DNA of 64,000 bases, from NCBI GenBank assembly GCA_025655595.1, contig JAHXIO010000001.1, positions 1-64,000 of the forward strand. Direction: 5' to 3'. Source of the DNA: Candidatus Thiodiazotropha sp. (ex Monitilora ramsayi). GTDB lineage: Bacteria; Pseudomonadota; Gammaproteobacteria; Chromatiales; Chromatiaceae. Positions 1 to 8,835 of the stretch are shown piece by piece; position 1 is the first letter of the stretch; every line of letters begins with the position of its first letter. Under the pieces are notes generated by a model, which was not told the origin of the DNA, ran no database searches, and was given only the letters and a program-made list of their open reading frames with translations. A program made the translations under genes and the position numbers.

Positions 1-65
1 GGTGTTGTCTGGCAACCAACCAATGACAACACCAATAAAATGAAGATTAAAAACCTATTCCTCAT
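1..65 (-). CDS. Lipoprotein of a second integron cassette, 5' part only
   Basis: The reading frame starts at ATG (65-63, minus strand) and runs off the window edge after 21 codons. The visible peptide is MRNRFLIFILLVLSLVGC followed by QTT. This is a classic lipoprotein signal: basic N-terminus, hydrophobic core and the lipobox LVGC, with lipidation predicted at Cys18. An AAGGA Shine-Dalgarno lies 7-8 bases upstream of the ATG. The frame begins 25 bases inside the cassette boundary at 91|90 and points away from the integrase, as cassette genes usually do. Nothing can be said about the mature protein. An alternative ATG eight bases upstream opens only a five-codon frame. Confidence 0.7.
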   Translation of the reverse strand, partial: MRNRFLIFILLVLSLVGCQTT

Positions 66-84
66 TTTGCATTTTCCTTTTTGC

Positions 85-182
85 ATCTAACGCCGTGGTA
101 ATGGGTTTGGGTGAGATGGCGGCAATTTTGGAACAAAATTGGTGACAGCTTACCCAAATCCCAATTCACCACCTTGTTAAGC
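85..182 (-). other. attC recombination site of integron cassette 1
   Basis: Read on the minus strand, the site starts with the core GCTTAAC (182-176, R'') and ends with GTTAGAT (91-85, R'). Both match the consensus pair RYYYAAC and GTTRRRY. Between them the DNA is a long imperfect palindrome. GTGGTAATGGGTTTGGGT (95-112) pairs, with unpaired bases, with the ACCCAAATCCCA and CACCAC stretches at 152-173. A central hairpin CAATTTTG/CAAAATTG (123-142) closes it. R'' is exactly complementary to the cassette's own first bases (GTTAAGC at 549-543), as a circular cassette requires. The length of 98 bp is in the range of chromosomal-integron attC sites. The stop codon of the cassette gene lies inside R''. 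Confidence 0.88.
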
Positions 183-548
183 ATTGCCATGCCTTCTTGT
201 ATACCACAATGTGATTGGTATTGATGCTAATAATGTTGAAACCACCATTGGAGCTATTGGAACGAACCCAAGGAAATTAGTGACAGTATTTGGCGGCAGC
301 CTAAATATTAAATGCTGCCAACCCACAGTTACTAATGGTATGCCCGACCAAATAGCTACACCCAAAATTGGAGTTATTAAAAGCATTGCCAGTGATGAAA
401 TAAGCCAATGCAACTTTGGAACTCCTTTTCTGATATAGATTCTTGTTTGTATTGCTACTGCCATAATCCAAGGTAACAACAAACCTGAAGCTATGAGCAT
501 TACAAATTCAGAACCAGTTATATGTTGCTCATCCATACTTTTGCTTAA
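91..548 (-). mobile_element. Complete integron gene cassette 1 (458 bp)
   Basis: The limits follow from the G|TT cleavage rule applied to the two GTTRRRY cores, at 549-543 (attI junction) and 91-85 (junction to cassette 2). The cassette holds one gene (177-536, minus) and its attC. The gap between the attI junction and the ATG is only 12 bases, so there is no room for a promoter of its own. Expression probably depends on a promoter in attI or intI. The orientation away from the integrase is the usual one. Confidence 0.85.
177..536 (-). CDS. Cassette-encoded small membrane protein, unknown function
   Basis: This 119-aa protein has three evident hydrophobic segments, roughly residues 10-30 (MLIASGLLLPWIMAVAI), 42-62 (LHWLISSLAMLLITPILGV) and 88-110 (FLGFVPIAPMVVSTLLASIP). 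The C-terminus is short and basic (WYTRRHGNA). It has no cysteine pairs, no lipobox and no motif I recognise. The ATG lies 12 bases from the attI junction without a strong Shine-Dalgarno. The TAA overlaps the attC core, which is typical of cassette genes. Its function cannot be read from the sequence. Many chromosomal-integron cassettes encode small unknown, toxin-antitoxin or membrane proteins, and here there is no partner gene. Confidence 0.75.
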   Translation of the reverse strand: MDEQHITGSEFVMLIASGLLLPWIMAVAIQTRIYIRKGVPKLHWLISSLAMLLITPILGVAIWSGIPLVTVGWQHLIFRLPPNTVTNFLGFVPIAPMVVSTLLASIPITLWYTRRHGNA

Positions 549-668
549 CAGTTATGTAGACAGACGCTTTGTTATCTGAGATAGGAGGTGTCTCTCTATC
601 TCCGTGGACTTTTTTCCAGGTTTTGATACGCTTTCCCTTATCATAGAGATAGCCATGGAGGGCTTATT
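543..668 (-). other. attI primary recombination site and integrase leader
   Basis: The insertion core GTTAAGC (549-543, minus strand) sits between the first cassette and the integrase start codon. The remaining bases to 668 hold the rest of attI and the leader of the integrase gene. GGAGG at 657-661 is the Shine-Dalgarno for the ATG at 669. Further GTTA-containing motifs at 551 and 571 could be accessory integrase-binding boxes, but I cannot assign them individually. The position is deduced from the cassette boundary and the integrase start. Confidence 0.7.
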
Positions 669-2063
669 ATGGTCGGAAATGAAGCTGCTGAGGAACAGCG
701 TGCGGTTGAGCGGTTTTGGCATAACTATCTGTCTATCCTTGAAAAAGACTCCATACCAGCTACAGAAAGGCAATGGTACCGAAAACATATTGAAGAATAC
801 ATCAGCGCCCATTCAAGGGTCAAATTACGGGATCATCAACCCCGCCATATCGATAGATATCTAACCGCAAAAGGCAGACTCCCCAGGCTTCAAGAGTGGC
901 AATTTCGGCAAATTGCCAATGCGCTACGATTACTTTTCTGTAAACTGATCACACCTTCATGGGCTTCTGAGTATGACTGGTATCGCTGGCGAGCATATGC
1001 CAAGGAACTCGAACCCGATCATCCCACAATCATGCGGGATGCTAGTTTTGGCGTTTTGATGGCGCCCAATAGCAATCCTCTAGTCAGGCGTTTTCGAGAG
1101 GAGCATACTGATTTATATCGGGCTTTTGTTAAGACCATTCGCGTACGCGGAATGGCAGCCAGAACTGAAAAAACCTACGAGCACTGGCTGATAAGATTTT
1201 TTCAGTACCACCAGTGGAAAGACATCGGTCAATTAGTACCAAAAAAGATTTCGGACTATCTAGAACATCTTGCACTAAATCGACATGTATCTGCTGCAAC
1301 CCAAAAGGTTGCAATGAACAGTCTGGTTTTCTTTTATCGTGAAGTGCTAGGTAAAAACATAGAGGGTATATTCACTCACACCCGTGCCAAGGCGAGAAGA
1401 CGATTACCTACGGTATTGTCTAAGCAAGAGATAAAACTGTTGCTCGATTCCATGAATGGTCGTTCAAAACTGATGGCTTCTCTTATGTACGGCACAGGCA
1501 TGCGGATTATGGAGTGCGTACGACTGCGTATACAAGACCTCGATTTCGCTTACAAGCAGATTACCATTCGTACAGGAAAAGGTGGTAAGGAGCGAATAGT
1601 TCCCTTGCCTGTATCCTTGATCCCTCAAATCCAGGCATACCTTAAAGAAATCAAGGCGCTCCACGATGGTGATCTCGCTGACGGATTCGGTGCAGTTCTT
1701 CTACCGCCTGCTTTGGCCAGAAAATTAGGGAAAGCAGTCAAGACTTGGCAATGGCAGTTTGTTTTCCCAGCCACAAAACTGGCAATGGATCATGAAACAG
1801 GAAAGGTACGACGCCATCATGTTCATCAAACCGGTTTGCAGAAAGCCATTCGAATTGCTTCGCGAAAAGCGGGCATTAACAAGCGCGTAACCAGTCATAC
1901 TCTACGGCACTCATTTGCGACTCACCTACTGGAAAGTGGAAGCGATATCAGGCTCATTCAAGAGTTACTCGGCCATGCTGATGTAAACACCACGATGATA
2001 TACACCCATGTCCTACAAAAGGGCGGTCTTGGCGTTCAAAGCCCGTTGGATAATCTTAGCTGA
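669..2063 (+). CDS. intI: Integron integrase (tyrosine recombinase), long form
   Basis: IntI catalyses attI x attC and attC x attC recombination of gene cassettes. The tyrosine-recombinase residues are present: Arg279 (GTGMR), His410 and Arg413 (SHTLRHS), His436 (LLGH) and the nucleophile Tyr445 (MIYTH). Residues 372-408, MDHETGKVRRHHVHQTGLQKAIR and what follows, form the extra helix region that separates IntI from XerC/D. The usual core-binding domain spans about 148-235. The protein is 464 aa against about 320-340 aa for class 1 IntI. The excess is an N-terminal block (about 10-125) that itself looks like a second SAM-like core-binding domain. The start is supported by GGAGG seven bases upstream. 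The gene converges on glmS. Confidence 0.93.
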   Translation: MVGNEAAEEQRAVERFWHNYLSILEKDSIPATERQWYRKHIEEYISAHSRVKLRDHQPRHIDRYLTAKGRLPRLQEWQFRQIANALRLLFCKLITPSWASEYDWYRWRAYAKELEPDHPTIMRDASFGVLMAPNSNPLVRRFREEHTDLYRAFVKTIRVRGMAARTEKTYEHWLIRFFQYHQWKDIGQLVPKKISDYLEHLALNRHVSAATQKVAMNSLVFFYREVLGKNIEGIFTHTRAKARRRLPTVLSKQEIKLLLDSMNGRSKLMASLMYGTGMRIMECVRLRIQDLDFAYKQITIRTGKGGKERIVPLPVSLIPQIQAYLKEIKALHDGDLADGFGAVLLPPALARKLGKAVKTWQWQFVFPATKLAMDHETGKVRRHHVHQTGLQKAIRIASRKAGINKRVTSHTLRHSFATHLLESGSDIRLIQELLGHADVNTTMIYTHVLQKGGLGVQSPLDNLS

Positions 2064-2088
2064 GCCACCAAACAGATTAGCTCAGCTA
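2057..2088. terminator. Inverted repeat shared by the ends of intI and glmS
   Basis: TAGCTGAGC (2057-2065) and GCTCAGCTA (2080-2088) are perfect 9-bp arms around a 14-base loop. The left arm contains the intI TGA and the right arm contains the glmS TAG. No long T tract follows on either side. It may act as a weak bidirectional terminator for the convergent genes, or simply stabilise both 3' ends. Confidence 0.5.
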
Positions 2089-3912
2089 TTCAACCGTCAC
2101 GGATTTCGCCAGATTCCTCGGCTGGTCCACATCCGTTCCCTTCAATACCGCCACATGATAAGCCAGCAATTGCAGCGGAATGCTGTAGACGATCGGCGCC
2201 GTGGTTGGGTAGATGTCTGACAGAGTGAGATTCTGGTAGTTGTCCAGGTCGATCTTGACTCTCTGGTCGCTGAATAGGAACAGTTCACCGCCACGGGCGC
2301 GAACTTCCTGCAGGTTCGAGAGTACCTTCTCCAACAACGGGTCATCGGGTAAGGCGCATATCACCGGCATCTCGGCATCAACCAGCGCCAGCGGACCATG
2401 TTTCAATTCACCAGCAGGATAGGCCTCAGCGTGGATGTAAGAGATCTCTTTCAGCTTCAGCGCCCCCTCCATGGCGACCGGGTAGAAGCATCCTCGACCA
2501 AGGAAGAGGGCGTGTTGCCGATCGGCGAAAGCATTCGCCATGGCCTGGATGGAATCGCTCAGCTCCAGTACCACCTCTACCTGGCGGGGTACGGCATGGA
2601 GTTCATTCACCAGTACTTGTTCATCCGCTTCGCTCAATCCCCGGCGCTTCGCCAGCGCCAGGGTCAGCAGGCGCAGGGCGACCAGTTGTGTGGTGAAGGC
2701 CTTGGTGGAGGCGACACCGATCTCGGGGCCGGCACGCGTCATCAACGCTACATCCGACTCTCTTACCAATGAGCTCTCTGGTACGTTACAGATACAGAGT
2801 GAGCCGATATAGTCCATCTCCTTCGCTGCCCGCAAAGCAGCCAAGGTATCTGCCGTTTCACCCGATTGTGAAATGGTAAGGAAGAGGGTGTCGGGGGAGA
2901 CGACGACTTTTCGATAGCGGTACTCACTCGCCACTTCGATACTGCAAGGAACACCGATCTCTTCCAGCCAATATTTAGCGACAAGGCCGGCATGATAACT
3001 GGTTCCGCAGGCGATGATTTGTACCTGCTTGGTCTTGTCGAACAAAGTCTTGGCCTCATGGCCAAAACTCTCTTCCATCAGGCGGCCTTTATAGATACGC
3101 CCTTCCAGTGTCTCTGCGATGACGCCAGGCTGCTCGTAGATCTCTTTGAGCATGTAGTGTCGGTAGGGACCCTTGTCCACACTGTCGGCATTCAGTTTGG
3201 AGGTCTTCTCCTCCCTTGTGACCTCCTCACCGGTTCTGTCATAGATGGTGATCTTGTTTCGGCTGATCTCCGCTACGTCTCCCTCTTCAAGAAAGAGAAA
3301 GCGCTGGGTAACCGGCAGCAGCGCCGCCACATCGGAGGCGATAAAGTTTTCACCCTCACCCAGACCGATAACCAGCGGGCTACCTTCACGGGTCACGATG
3401 ATCCGGTCCGACTCTTCCGGACAGGCCACTGCCATGGCATAGGCGCCGGACATCTCTTTTGAGGCCTCTTTGACGGCCTGGAAAATCTCCAGGCCTTCAC
3501 CCAGCTTGCTGGCCAGGAGGTGCGCGATAACTTCCGTATCGGTTTCCGAAGTGAAGACGAATCCCTGGGATTCCAACTTGCTGCGCAATTCGCTGTGATT
3601 TTCGATGATACCGTTATGGACAACAGCGACCCGTTCGCCGCTCATGTGGGGGTGTGCATTCAACTCGGACGGTCTGCCGTGGGTCGCCCAACGTGTGTGA
3701 GCGATGCCCAGCAGGCCATCGACCCCGGCATCATTCACGATACCGTCCAGATTGGAGACCTTCCCAATGGTCCTGAAGCGTTGCATTCTCCCTTCTGACT
3801 CGCGGACCGCCAGTCCAGCGGAGTCATAGCCTCTGTACTCCAGCCTTCTCAGGCCTTCCATCAGGATGGGGACTACATTGCGCTCAGCGATACCGCCGAC
3901 AATGCCACACAT
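2086..3912 (-). CDS. glmS: Glutamine-fructose-6-phosphate aminotransferase
   Basis: GlmS makes glucosamine-6-phosphate from fructose-6-phosphate and glutamine, the first step of UDP-GlcNAc synthesis. After removal of Met1, Cys2 in MCGIVGG is the N-terminal nucleophile of the class II glutaminase domain (about 1-220). Two SIS sugar-isomerase domains follow (about 285-425 and 455-595). The 608-aa length is normal, and the C-terminus ends with the conserved LAKSVTVE, the segment whose DNA serves as attTn7 in other bacteria. It lies 11 bases downstream of glmU on the same strand, so the two UDP-GlcNAc genes form one unit. Confidence 0.98.
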   Translation of the reverse strand: MCGIVGGIAERNVVPILMEGLRRLEYRGYDSAGLAVRESEGRMQRFRTIGKVSNLDGIVNDAGVDGLLGIAHTRWATHGRPSELNAHPHMSGERVAVVHNGIIENHSELRSKLESQGFVFTSETDTEVIAHLLASKLGEGLEIFQAVKEASKEMSGAYAMAVACPEESDRIIVTREGSPLVIGLGEGENFIASDVAALLPVTQRFLFLEEGDVAEISRNKITIYDRTGEEVTREEKTSKLNADSVDKGPYRHYMLKEIYEQPGVIAETLEGRIYKGRLMEESFGHEAKTLFDKTKQVQIIACGTSYHAGLVAKYWLEEIGVPCSIEVASEYRYRKVVVSPDTLFLTISQSGETADTLAALRAAKEMDYIGSLCICNVPESSLVRESDVALMTRAGPEIGVASTKAFTTQLVALRLLTLALAKRRGLSEADEQVLVNELHAVPRQVEVVLELSDSIQAMANAFADRQHALFLGRGCFYPVAMEGALKLKEISYIHAEAYPAGELKHGPLALVDAEMPVICALPDDPLLEKVLSNLQEVRARGGELFLFSDQRVKIDLDNYQNLTLSDIYPTTAPIVYSIPLQLLAYHVAVLKGTDVDQPRNLAKSVTVE

Positions 3913-3923
3913 AACGCTTCCTC

Positions 3924-5294
3924 TTATTTCTTGGGTTTTTTGACCGGTCGTTGCCAGCCATCAATACTGATCTGTTTGGCCCGGCTAAGACTCAGCGTCT
4001 CAGCGGGCGTATCTCTGGTGATAGTCGAACCCGCACCGATGGTGGAGCCATCGGCAACGGTCACGGGCGCCACCAGTTGGGTATCCGAACCGACGAACAC
4101 GCGATCGCCGATAACTGTTTGGAATTTATTAGCACCATCGTAGTTGCAGGTGATCGTCCCCGCACCGATATTCACTTCAGAACCCATGACAGTATCGCCG
4201 ATATAGCTCAGATGGTTGATCTTACTCTTGGTCGCCACCTGGCTCTTTTTAATCTCGACAAAATTACCCACATGCACCTGATCTGCGATCTGTGTATCAG
4301 GCCTGATTCGTGCGAATGGTCCGACACGGCAATCGGCGCCGATCTCAGCGTCCTCGATAACACTGTTTGCCAAAATCTCCGTATCGGCACCGATACGGCT
4401 ATTCTTGACCACCACATTGGGTCCGATGCGCACGCCGTCCGCCAGCGAGACATCGCCTTCGAACACGGCATTGATATCAATGGTGACATCCTTACCCACT
4501 GTGAGCTTGCCGCGAACATCCAGTCTTGCCGGATCACTCAGGCTGACACCCGATGCCATCAGCATATCTGCCTGCTGCTGCTGAAAATAACGTTCCAGAT
4601 AGGCAAGCTGCTTGCGGTCGTTGACCCCCATTACCTCCTCTTCACAGACCGGGTGGACCACCTGGATATTCACCCCGTCGTTTACAGCCATTGAGATAAT
4701 GTCGGTCAGATAGTACTCATTCTGCGCATTATTGTTTTCGATTCTTCCAAGCCAGCTCTCTAGCCGGTTTTTACTGACTGCCATGATGCCGGTGTTGATC
4801 TCGGCAATCTCCAGTTCCCTTTCCGTAGCATCTTTCTGCTCGACGATGCGGACAACCCGATCGTTGCGGTCCCGCACGATCCGGCCGTATCCGGTGGGAT
4901 CCGGCAGATCGACGGTCAGCAGTGCCAGATCAGTCTGGTGCAGCGCTGCCAGCAGGGAGACCAGCGTAGAGCCACTGATCAGCGGTACGTCTCCATAGAG
5001 GATCAGCACCTGGTCTACCTTTTGCAGTTGCGGAAGCGCTTGCATCACGGCATGTCCCGTGCCCAGGCGTTCCTTCTGCTCCACCCAGTCCAGGTCATCT
5101 GCCGCAAGAGTATTGCAGACCGTTTCGCCACCATGTCCATAGACAATCGTAATCTCATCCGGTGTGATTGATCTGGCCGTTTCGATCACATGCCCCAATA
5201 ACGGTTTTCCCGCCAAAGGGTGCAGGACCTTGGGTAGACGAGAGCGCATGCGGGTGCCCTCACCAGCTGCCAGGATAAGTACGCCAAGATGCAT
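3924..5294 (-). CDS. glmU: Bifunctional GlcN-1-P acetyltransferase / UDP-GlcNAc pyrophosphorylase
   Basis: This cytosolic enzyme acetylates glucosamine-1-phosphate and then uridylylates it, giving UDP-GlcNAc for peptidoglycan and LPS. The pyrophosphorylase signature LAAGEGTRMRSRLPKVLHPL lies at residues 8-27. The left-handed beta-helix with hexapeptide repeats occupies about 250-440. The C-terminal tail is lysine-rich (VKKPKK). At 456 aa it matches the E. coli enzyme. It is followed by glmS; upstream are 239 untranslated bases and the FKBP gene. Confidence 0.98.
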   Translation of the reverse strand: MHLGVLILAAGEGTRMRSRLPKVLHPLAGKPLLGHVIETARSITPDEITIVYGHGGETVCNTLAADDLDWVEQKERLGTGHAVMQALPQLQKVDQVLILYGDVPLISGSTLVSLLAALHQTDLALLTVDLPDPTGYGRIVRDRNDRVVRIVEQKDATERELEIAEINTGIMAVSKNRLESWLGRIENNNAQNEYYLTDIISMAVNDGVNIQVVHPVCEEEVMGVNDRKQLAYLERYFQQQQADMLMASGVSLSDPARLDVRGKLTVGKDVTIDINAVFEGDVSLADGVRIGPNVVVKNSRIGADTEILANSVIEDAEIGADCRVGPFARIRPDTQIADQVHVGNFVEIKKSQVATKSKINHLSYIGDTVMGSEVNIGAGTITCNYDGANKFQTVIGDRVFVGSDTQLVAPVTVADGSTIGAGSTITRDTPAETLSLSRAKQISIDGWQRPVKKPKK

Positions 5295-5533
5295 CTATTT
5301 TCCCCTATTGATCCGATGCCAATGGCATCCGTGGAATTTTATGACATTAAATCAGAATTGCGTCCGTAACTGTATAGACACATCAGAAACGTCAAGGGAG
5401 TTTGCAAACCATCGGAGCCGGGTCAATGGCTAGTCCAGTCATGACCTATGCACTGATTTGCAAAGGCTTTATCCAACAAGCCAAACAAGAACACTAATGG
5501 GGCGCGAGAGCGCTAAAGCTTCGGAACGATGGA

Positions 5534-6022
5534 TCAGTTCAGCGTCGGCGTCTGTCCGGGGATACCGACGTTCATGGCGTCTTCTTTGGTAGCGTCACGC
5601 ACTTCGAGGATTTTAACGTTGACCTTAAGGTCCTTGCCAGCCAGCGGGTGATTGCCGTCGACCGTCAGCTTGCCGTCCTCGATCTTGGTAACAAAGAAGC
5701 TCTTCACCTCACCCGCCTCGTTCTGCATCTGCACTTCCGCACCCAACTGCCGGAACTGAGGAGGCACATTGTCGAGGTCATCGGTGAAGGTCAGTTCGGG
5801 ATCATGTTCCCCGAATCCCTGAGCCGGTGTGATGGTGATACTGACCTCGTCACCGGGGCTTTTACCTTCCACGGCCCGGTCCATGCCGCCGATCAGTTCG
5901 GTCTCACCGCCGTGGATATAGTTCACCGGCAGGTCGCTCTGCTCCAATACATTCCCATCCAGATCACAGATCGAATAGGTGAGTGAAACATATTTACCGA
6001 CTTTGATGATTTCTTGGGACAT
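5534..6022 (-). CDS. SlyD-like FKBP-type peptidyl-prolyl isomerase
   Basis: The 162-aa protein begins with an FKBP strand (KVGKYVSLTYSICDLDGNVLE) and has the loop GGETELIGGMDRAVEGKSPGDE. An insert-in-flap chaperone domain (about 75-125, TPAQGFGEHDPELTF) follows. This is the SlyD arrangement of prolyl isomerase plus chaperone in the cytosol. It lacks the long His/Cys-rich metal-binding tail of E. coli SlyD and ends in GIPGQTPTLN. It lies downstream of the atp operon on the same strand but behind a hairpin. Confidence 0.9.
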   Translation of the reverse strand: MSQEIIKVGKYVSLTYSICDLDGNVLEQSDLPVNYIHGGETELIGGMDRAVEGKSPGDEVSITITPAQGFGEHDPELTFTDDLDNVPPQFRQLGAEVQMQNEAGEVKSFFVTKIEDGKLTVDGNHPLAGKDLKVNVKILEVRDATKEDAMNVGIPGQTPTLN

Positions 6023-6035
6023 GGCGATACAACTT

Positions 6036-6061
6036 TCAGGACCTGATGATACAGGTCCTGA
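6036..6061 (-). terminator. Hairpin after the atp operon
   Basis: TCAGGACCTG (6036-6045) and CAGGTCCTGA (6052-6061) are perfect 10-bp arms with a six-base loop. The hairpin lies between the end of atpC and the start of the FKBP gene. No marked T tract follows on the minus strand, so termination may be partial. Confidence 0.6.
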
Positions 6062-6078
6062 TTATAGCGTGAAGTGGG

Positions 6079-6507
6079 TCAGGTGCGCTTGCCTTTGCGG
6101 ATACGCTCGATGGCACGGAGCTGTGCCACCGCCTCGGCCAGTTCGGCCTGGGCCTTGGCGTATTCGAATTCTGCGCTGCGATCCGCCATGGCGTCTTCGG
6201 CCCGACGCTTGGCCTCTTCCGCCGCAGCCTCGTCCAAATCTGTTGCGCGAATGGCGGTATCCGCCAGCACAGTCACTACATGGGGTTGCACTTCGAGGAT
6301 ACCGCCGGAGACGTAGAAGTGCTGCATCTCCTTGTTGTCGCCAAGGTCCACGCGCACTTCGCCCGGTTTCAGGCGAGTGACCAGCGGGGTATGGCGAGGG
6401 GCAATACCCACTTCGCCCATCACAGCGGGGGCATAGACCATCTCAGCGAGACCGCTGAAGATCTCACCCTCGGCACTGACGATGTCCACATGGATTGTCA
6501 TGGCCAT
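6079..6507 (-). CDS. atpC: F1Fo ATP synthase subunit epsilon
   Basis: Epsilon is the small rotor-stalk subunit of F1 that also inhibits ATP hydrolysis. The N-terminal beta-sandwich (about 1-88, with [19 protein letters not shown]) is followed by a two-helix C-terminal domain rich in Ala, Glu and Arg. The length of 142 aa is standard. It is the last gene of the operon. The start could be Met1 or Met3. Confidence 0.96.
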
Positions 6508-6526
6508 CTATTCTACTCCCAGCCTA

Positions 6527-7963
<1,437 letters not shown>

Positions 7964-7974
7964 TCAGGCTGTCA

Positions 7975-8835
7975 TCAGACAGCCGCTGCACCACCGACGA
8001 TCTCTGAGATCTCCTGGGTGATCGCCGCCTGGCGAGCCTTGTTGTAGATCAGTTGCAGTTCGTTGATCAGCTCACCCGCGTTATCCGAGGCCGACTTCAT
8101 CGCCACCATACGTGCAGACTGCTCACAGGCGCCGTTTTCCACCACGGCCTGGTAGACCAGGGACTCCACATAGCGGCCCAACAGGTTATCGAGTACATCT
8201 TTCGAATCCGGCTCGTAGATGTAGTCCCAGTGGTGCTTCAGCTCTTCCACTTCCTTGGGTGGAATCGGCACCAGCTGCTCGACGGACGGGCTCTGGGTCA
8301 TGGTGTTGACGAAATTGTTGTAGGCGATATAGATGCGATCGATCTTGCCCTCGGCATAGGCATCCAGCATCACCTTGACCGTACCGATCAGGTCTTCGAT
8401 ATGCGGCGCATCGCCCAAATGGGTCGCCTGACTAACGATATTGCCACCAAAGCGACTAAAGAAGCCAAGTGCCTTGTTGCCAATGGTGCAGAAGTCAACT
8501 TCCGTACCGCTGTCACGCAGCTCTTTCATCTCTTTGAACAACTTACGAAACAGATTGTTGTTCAAGCCGCCGCACAGACCGCGGTCCGATGAAACGATGA
8601 TGTAACCCACACGCTTCACTTCTCGCTCGATCATGAAGGTGTGCTTGTACTCGGGATGCGCGTGGAACAGATGTCCAATCACATTACGCATCTTGTCCGC
8701 ATAGGGCCGGGTAGCCGCCATTCGATTCTGCGCCTTACGCATCTTCGAGGCCGCCACCATCTCCATCGCCTTGGTGATCTTGCTCGTATTCTTGATACTG
8801 GCAATCTGTGTGCGTATCTCTTTTGCGCCCGCCAT
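7975..8835 (-). CDS. atpG: F1Fo ATP synthase subunit gamma
   Basis: Gamma is the central rotor shaft. The N-terminal helix starts with [24 protein letters not shown], and the C-terminal helix carries the conserved [27 protein letters not shown]. Between them [11 protein letters not shown] marks the Rossmann-like domain. The length of 286 aa is normal. It sits in order between atpA and atpD. Confidence 0.97.

Follow-up and report, generated by a model that had tools for sequence, protein, structure and literature searches.

Integrons supply genes to bacteria, and the tolerance of one integrase for many attC sites is a central question in their study. The locus described here, in the genome of a sulfur-oxidising clam symbiont, Candidatus Thiodiazotropha (assembly of 4.68 Mb in 46 contigs), raises this question beside the essential gene glmS: is there an integron, where do its cassettes begin and end, how far does the array run and what kind of integrase serves it? 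The window analysed is a stretch of 64,000 nucleotides at the start of contig C2. As its position 1 is the first base of C2, a real contig end inside the integron array, the array is cut by the assembly. Taken together, the evidence makes it highly probable that a Candidatus Thiodiazotropha-type symbiont carries at glmS a chromosomal integron whose array would pass through a cassette shared with contig C14 into contig C1, and whose integrase is predicted to carry core-binding domains in tandem.

Table 1. Features at the start of the window, with the basis of each assignment.
Feature	Coordinates	Strand	Basis and remarks
Cassette 2, first 91 bp	1..91	-	starts G91|T90 of GTTAGAT; 100% identity to C14; continues past the contig end
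attC of cassette 1	85..182	-	98 nt; R'' GCTTAAC 182-176, R' GTTAGAT 91-85; direct reading and fold
Cassette 1	91..548	-	458 bp between two G|TT junctions, G549|T548 to G91; comparison with C7 and C14
Cassette 1 ORF, 119-aa predicted membrane protein	177..536	-	stop codon inside R''
attI and intI promoter region	546..668	-	95.9% identical to the decayed C7 copy; 73-75% to relatives
intI	669..2063	+	464 aa, integron-type tyrosine recombinase; TIGR02249; IntI4 match
Extra N-terminal core-binding-like domain (predicted)	669..1010	+	aa 1-114; AF2, VIA-align, Phage_int_SAM_4
Candidate cassette promoter Pc	794..823	-	inside intI, TTGACC-N18-TATTCT, pointing at the cassettes; conservation
glmS	2086..3912	-	ORF outside the integron; convergent with intI, 22 bp between stop codons

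All the sequence elements named beforehand are present: on direct reading, the minus strand carries GTTAAGC at 549-543 and GTTAGAT at 91-85. The sequence-only reading had taken these motifs as the bounds of a cassette, and both junctions hold against second copies on C7 and C14. Positions 546-667 are 97% identical to G000:C7:76149-76270, with the identity ending at the attI junction, where both sequences read CTGTTA before running into different cassettes. At the other bound, positions 1-91 recur with 100% identity at the end of C14, as the first cassette of a second integron; here the identity begins at the G of GTTAGAT, and the preceding base differs. As the genome carries another copy of one cassette, in its second integron, the boundaries can be determined with single-base precision. 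Within the attI region, a near-inverted repeat is formed by TAGACAGAC (557-565) and GTCTCTCTA (590-598).

The R'' of the first attC is the exact complement of the start of its own cassette, GTTAAGC. This complementarity had been described before, and it stands; the statement that it proves circularisation was too strong. A cassette able to circularise is expected to show it, but its presence does not prove that circularisation occurs. As DNA, the 98-nt attC folds at -17.1 kcal/mol (z -2.8), and only 1 of 200 shuffled sequences folds as well. Outside the window site, the only match to the palindrome at 85-182 is a 98-nt attC-like site in the congener G010 (L086:898-995), which sits between two cassette-like ORFs. 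Sharing of this palindrome with unrelated non-integron loci, named beforehand as evidence against an integron, was therefore not what the search returned. The same G010 locus also contains, near its attC-like site, an IS91-like transposase with an adjoining 285-aa tyrosine recombinase (L086:1792-3772), and a similar 297-aa recombinase has several matches in G004, one of them beside an intI. The 119-aa protein of cassette 1 showed no Pfam or NCBIfam match and no counterpart among 39 relatives.

The ORF of cassette 2 runs down from position 65 (MRNRFLIFILLVLSLVGCQTT) and is lipoprotein-like. The C14 integron possesses its own integrase (462 aa) and its own attI; since positions 1-91 equal the C14 end from the core site onward, the same cassette takes second place in the glmS integron and first place in that of C14. 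That the window is cut inside a second cassette, as had been proposed, is confirmed by the C14 copy starting at GTTAGAT. An overlap of exactly 91 was also found between contigs C24 and C15, which indicates that 91 is the k-mer of the assembler and that the sequence shared by C2 and C14 is longer than seen. The sequence-only reading had passed over this shared cassette, the second integron and the two-domain N-terminus of the integrase.

We then located the continuation of the array by synteny. The closest relatives (G018 and G005, glmS 94% identical) have no integron at glmS, and the ORFs that come after the gene there are patatin-like, ~600-aa, 329-aa and acyl-CoA-dehydrogenase-like. The matching acyl-CoA dehydrogenase of the source genome lies at C1:8675, oriented as predicted for a C1 placed after the gap, and the gene order of the relatives thus places C1 opposite C2 across the gap. 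C1:1-6345 is a cassette array with ORFs of 112-207 aa and 12 to 14 attC sites (C1:29-6345), all on the + strand. In four of five consecutive C1 cassettes, R'' complements the bases with which the cassette itself begins, with 6 of 7 bases in the fifth; the same complementarity is present in the cassette interrupted by an IS110-family element and in one later cassette. The R'' of the first C1 attC, ATCTAAC, is the exact complement of GTTAGAT, the start of cassette 2, and occurs once among the 32 attC sites of the source genome. The unsequenced gap between C2 and C1 therefore probably lies inside this single shared cassette, as judged from the sequence of the two contig ends. Among the contigs searched, no other carries the first 91 bases of C1.

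When ten C1 cassette proteins were compared with Pfam, only DUF4304 and DUF2059 were matched above the cut-off. The IS110-family transposase (L224:3116-4066) interrupts an attC of the C1 array, and its flank at C1:4093-4288 is 96% identical to C4:13180-13375. Further attC arrays, in which no nearby integrase was seen, are located at the C7 end, on C24, at the C12 end, on C4 and at the C6 end (L255, L256, L257, L258 and L260, respectively), and several contigs of the source genome end within attC arrays.

The search for further attC sites in the same direction, suggested by the sequence-only reading, was carried out with a covariance model built from the 32 attC sites of the source genome. This model detected 51 attC-like sites genome-wide at E <= 1, and its matches on the C1 locus (L224) are all on the + strand. 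The integron-free relatives (L198, L200) gave no matches with the model. In integron loci of relatives outside the training set, 82 sites were found at E <= 0.1, on the strand opposite to intI. The window attC was among the training sites, and its score is just 25 bits; its assignment accordingly rests on its boundaries and fold rather than on the model. The proposed leftward continuation of the array is borne out by a series of at least 12 further same-direction attC sites on C1, which synteny joins to the window.

Residues 154-463 of the integrase match TIGR02249 with ~406-407 bits against a cut-off of 265, while all 14 control genomes give low-score matches and none passes. The closest solved structure is IntI4 (2a3v; E 8e-83), with residues 157-462 aligned and the patch region included; over the core and catalytic part, the identity is ~41% and the VIA-align Z 27. 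Alignments point to R279, K304, H410, R413, H436 and Y445 as candidate catalytic residues. A LexA box and SOS control before intI are frequent in integrons, but they are neither defining nor needed for membership; at 550-670, no CTGT-N8-ACAG-like box with up to one mismatch was present.

The first ~150 residues of the protein extend beyond the TIGR02249 and IntI4 match. In the full-length AF2 model, an extra helical domain (~4-110) precedes the core-binding domain (137-226) and the catalytic domain; confidence is low in the linker (111-133) and near the catalytic tyrosine (438-454). Folded alone, the extra domain reached a pLDDT of 92. Its predicted structure aligns with the core-binding domain of V. 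cholerae IntI4 (2a3v) at a VIA-align Z of 10.9 (rmsd 3.2, 98 aligned), and the top 26 rows are all tyrosine recombinases (Z 6.9-10.9) ahead of a first unrelated row at 5.2, with the proviso that helical bundles reach middling Z by chance. Foldseek gave a weak E-value (0.45) with a probability of 0.99 for the domain alone, and Phage_int_SAM_4, a SAM-like Pfam family, matched the extension below the cut-off (E 0.018; 1.5e-4 in a homologue). From these models, we infer that the extra domain is a duplicated core-binding domain, giving two in tandem. Most likely, it would contact additional DNA, for example accessory attI repeats.

A set of 43 full-length relatives with the extension was assembled from named genomes. 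Carriers belong to Chromatiales and related sulfur bacteria, Sedimenticola, Thiodiazotropha, Desulfobacterota and others, and among the loci matching the N-terminus are many from Candidatus Thiodiazotropha and other symbionts of lucinid clams. A core-region tree unites the long integrases in one group of 38 (support 99/97). Three short rows lie inside this group: L049 and L077 retain 61-63 residues before the core, and L056 has an extension match upstream in another segment (L172). With these traces of the extension, they look like broken long forms. The integrases of the glmS and C14 integrons belong to different subclades of this tree, and the identical cassette stretch is hence carried by two arrays with different integrases.

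A third integron, now decayed, is present on C7 (L004:10040-11135) and comprises the dead 5' end of an intI, two short cassettes and an attI resembling the window copy; a GNAT acetyltransferase is encoded by the ORF that comes next downstream. The attI-promoter segment of C7 is 95.9% identical to the window over 123 nt, versus 79% over 281 nt for the remaining intI (Fisher p 5e-6). This difference was absent from the decayed copies of G007 and G030 and small in that of G020. No gene-conversion breakpoint could be placed in the C7 copy: the identity declines gradually and the homology ends near 950. A frameshift near codon 26 is common to all four decayed glmS-type intI copies (L004, L083, L084, L085), which come from four genomes.

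The motif pair TTGACC-N18-TATTCT is fully conserved in five sequences, namely the window intI and the four decayed copies. Among 192 placements, only this one and its 1-base neighbour are fully conserved, a result to be read with the caveat that the sites were noticed first and that the five sequences are related. The single promoter scan was not significant (2 found versus 4.1 expected from shuffles); being below the shuffle expectation, it provides no evidence, and the candidate Pc is argued from conservation. These sequence comparisons suggest the hypothesis that the candidate cassette promoter and attI outlive intI.

The position of the integron close to the origin, noted earlier from the sequence, is confirmed by atpA, parB, parA, rsmG and mnmG at 8.9-17.6 kb of the window. 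The glmS gene is 72-94% identical to the one glmS per genome in each of 21 congeners. However, glmS as a conserved integron site across the genus was dropped because an intI adjoins it in only 2 of 22 Thiodiazotropha genomes, the source genome and G012. In the latter, the integrase is broken and convergent with glmS (L215, G012:C284). Within the window, no Rfam family matched at the gathering threshold, and a plasmid collection gave no match.

The shared cassette makes the joins ambiguous, and the C1 array could belong to the C14 integron or to another array, which would leave the glmS integron short. Since one 91-mer terminates both C2 and C14, either join is permitted by the assembly graph taken alone, and the arrays at the C6 end, the C7 end and on C24 also lack an upstream end. 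However, judging by gene order in the integron-free relatives, the sequence from C1:8675 onward belongs across from the integrase on the far side of the gap from glmS, and the R'' of the first C1 attC agrees with the prediction from the shared cassette, while those at the ends of C6, C7 and C24 do not. Such an assignment of the C1 array is therefore unlikely.

That the integron is decayed, with attI, attC and cassettes as relics of an inactive integrase, appears quite unlikely. About a third of intI genes were pseudogenes in a published survey (PMC2426708), and the C7 copy in this very genome is dead; against this, the window intI is open over 464 aa with the candidate catalytic residues kept, and recent movement is suggested by the occurrence of one cassette stretch, unchanged, in two arrays. 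Given that all 14 control genomes match the integrase family at low score, weak matches mean little, and one might think of a chance palindrome beside an Xer-like recombinase or of an assembly chimera of repeats. We regard this as very improbable: the integrase lies far above a cut-off that 0 of the 14 controls pass, the attI copy on C7 and the cassette copy on C14 diverge exactly at core sites, and the same-direction attC series refutes a non-integron reading, barring the case in which C1 lies elsewhere and the palindrome occurs outside cassettes. The proposal of an integron made from the window alone is thus supported by an IntI above the TIGR02249 cut-off, an attI with a decayed copy, a structured attC and the C1 series.

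According to the preferred reading of a chromosomal integron at glmS, the element would have inserted between glmS and the acyl-CoA-dehydrogenase region near oriC. Its IntI, a tyrosine recombinase, would capture cassettes at attI (G549|TT), and attC, folded from one strand, would serve as the recombination substrate. The array would run leftwards through the C14-shared cassette and then along C1, with ~13 cassettes and one attC carrying the IS110-family insertion. The gene, the sites and their boundaries, the common direction, the sharing and the synteny are seen in the sequence itself; the integron would probably be active and its cassettes mobile, and the extra domain may have a DNA-contacting role.

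The clade with the predicted duplicated core-binding domain offers a natural experiment on attC recognition. Two different integrases sharing one cassette, together with an attI copy better preserved than the adjoining dead intI, make the use of attI in trans testable, and the Thiodiazotropha animal symbionts represent a little-noticed cassette reservoir. More tentatively, and with doubt prevailing, the tandem core-binding integrases could form a separate mechanistic class of integron. Their extra domain would recognise attI arm repeats or the attC hairpin as accessory DNA and alter synapse or specificity, while the Pc-attI platform would stay under selection and be used in trans after the death of intI, as on C7.

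The integron itself is of a known kind, while the two-domain N-terminus of its integrase is undescribed as far as our partial literature search shows: no description of long two-domain integrases, glmS integrons or Thiodiazotropha integrons was found there, and a full-text search for integron with Thiodiazotropha yielded an incidental mention only. Several intI per genome, along with frequent intI pseudogenes, have been surveyed (PMC2426708), with up to five intI in one Shewanella strain (PMC9229058), and Thiodiazotropha reaches four integrases per genome. In contrast to those multi-integrase genomes, an identical cassette stretch occurs here in two arrays whose IntIs belong to different subclades. 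Like Tn7 or a class 2 integron at attTn7, downstream of glmS, the element lies just 3' of glmS; unlike them, it has the end of intI itself 22 bp away from the stop codon of glmS. Reading the ORFs of window 1-8000 and C1:1-11700 by eye turned up no tns transposition genes. With class 1 integrons, where Pc lies inside intI1, it shares a candidate Pc inside intI directed at attI, but it is chromosomal, has a long integrase and shows no resistance cassettes among those read. Compared with sedentary chromosomal integrons such as that of V. cholerae (IntI4/VchIntIA, 2a3v), the array is short and one of several in the genome, and the integrase differs from IntI4 in its additional N-terminal core-binding-like domain. 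The locus nevertheless resembles these integrons in having intI divergent from the array, an attI and attC sites with R'' and R', and, as in other gammaproteobacteria, cassettes in one direction that are mostly of unknown function.
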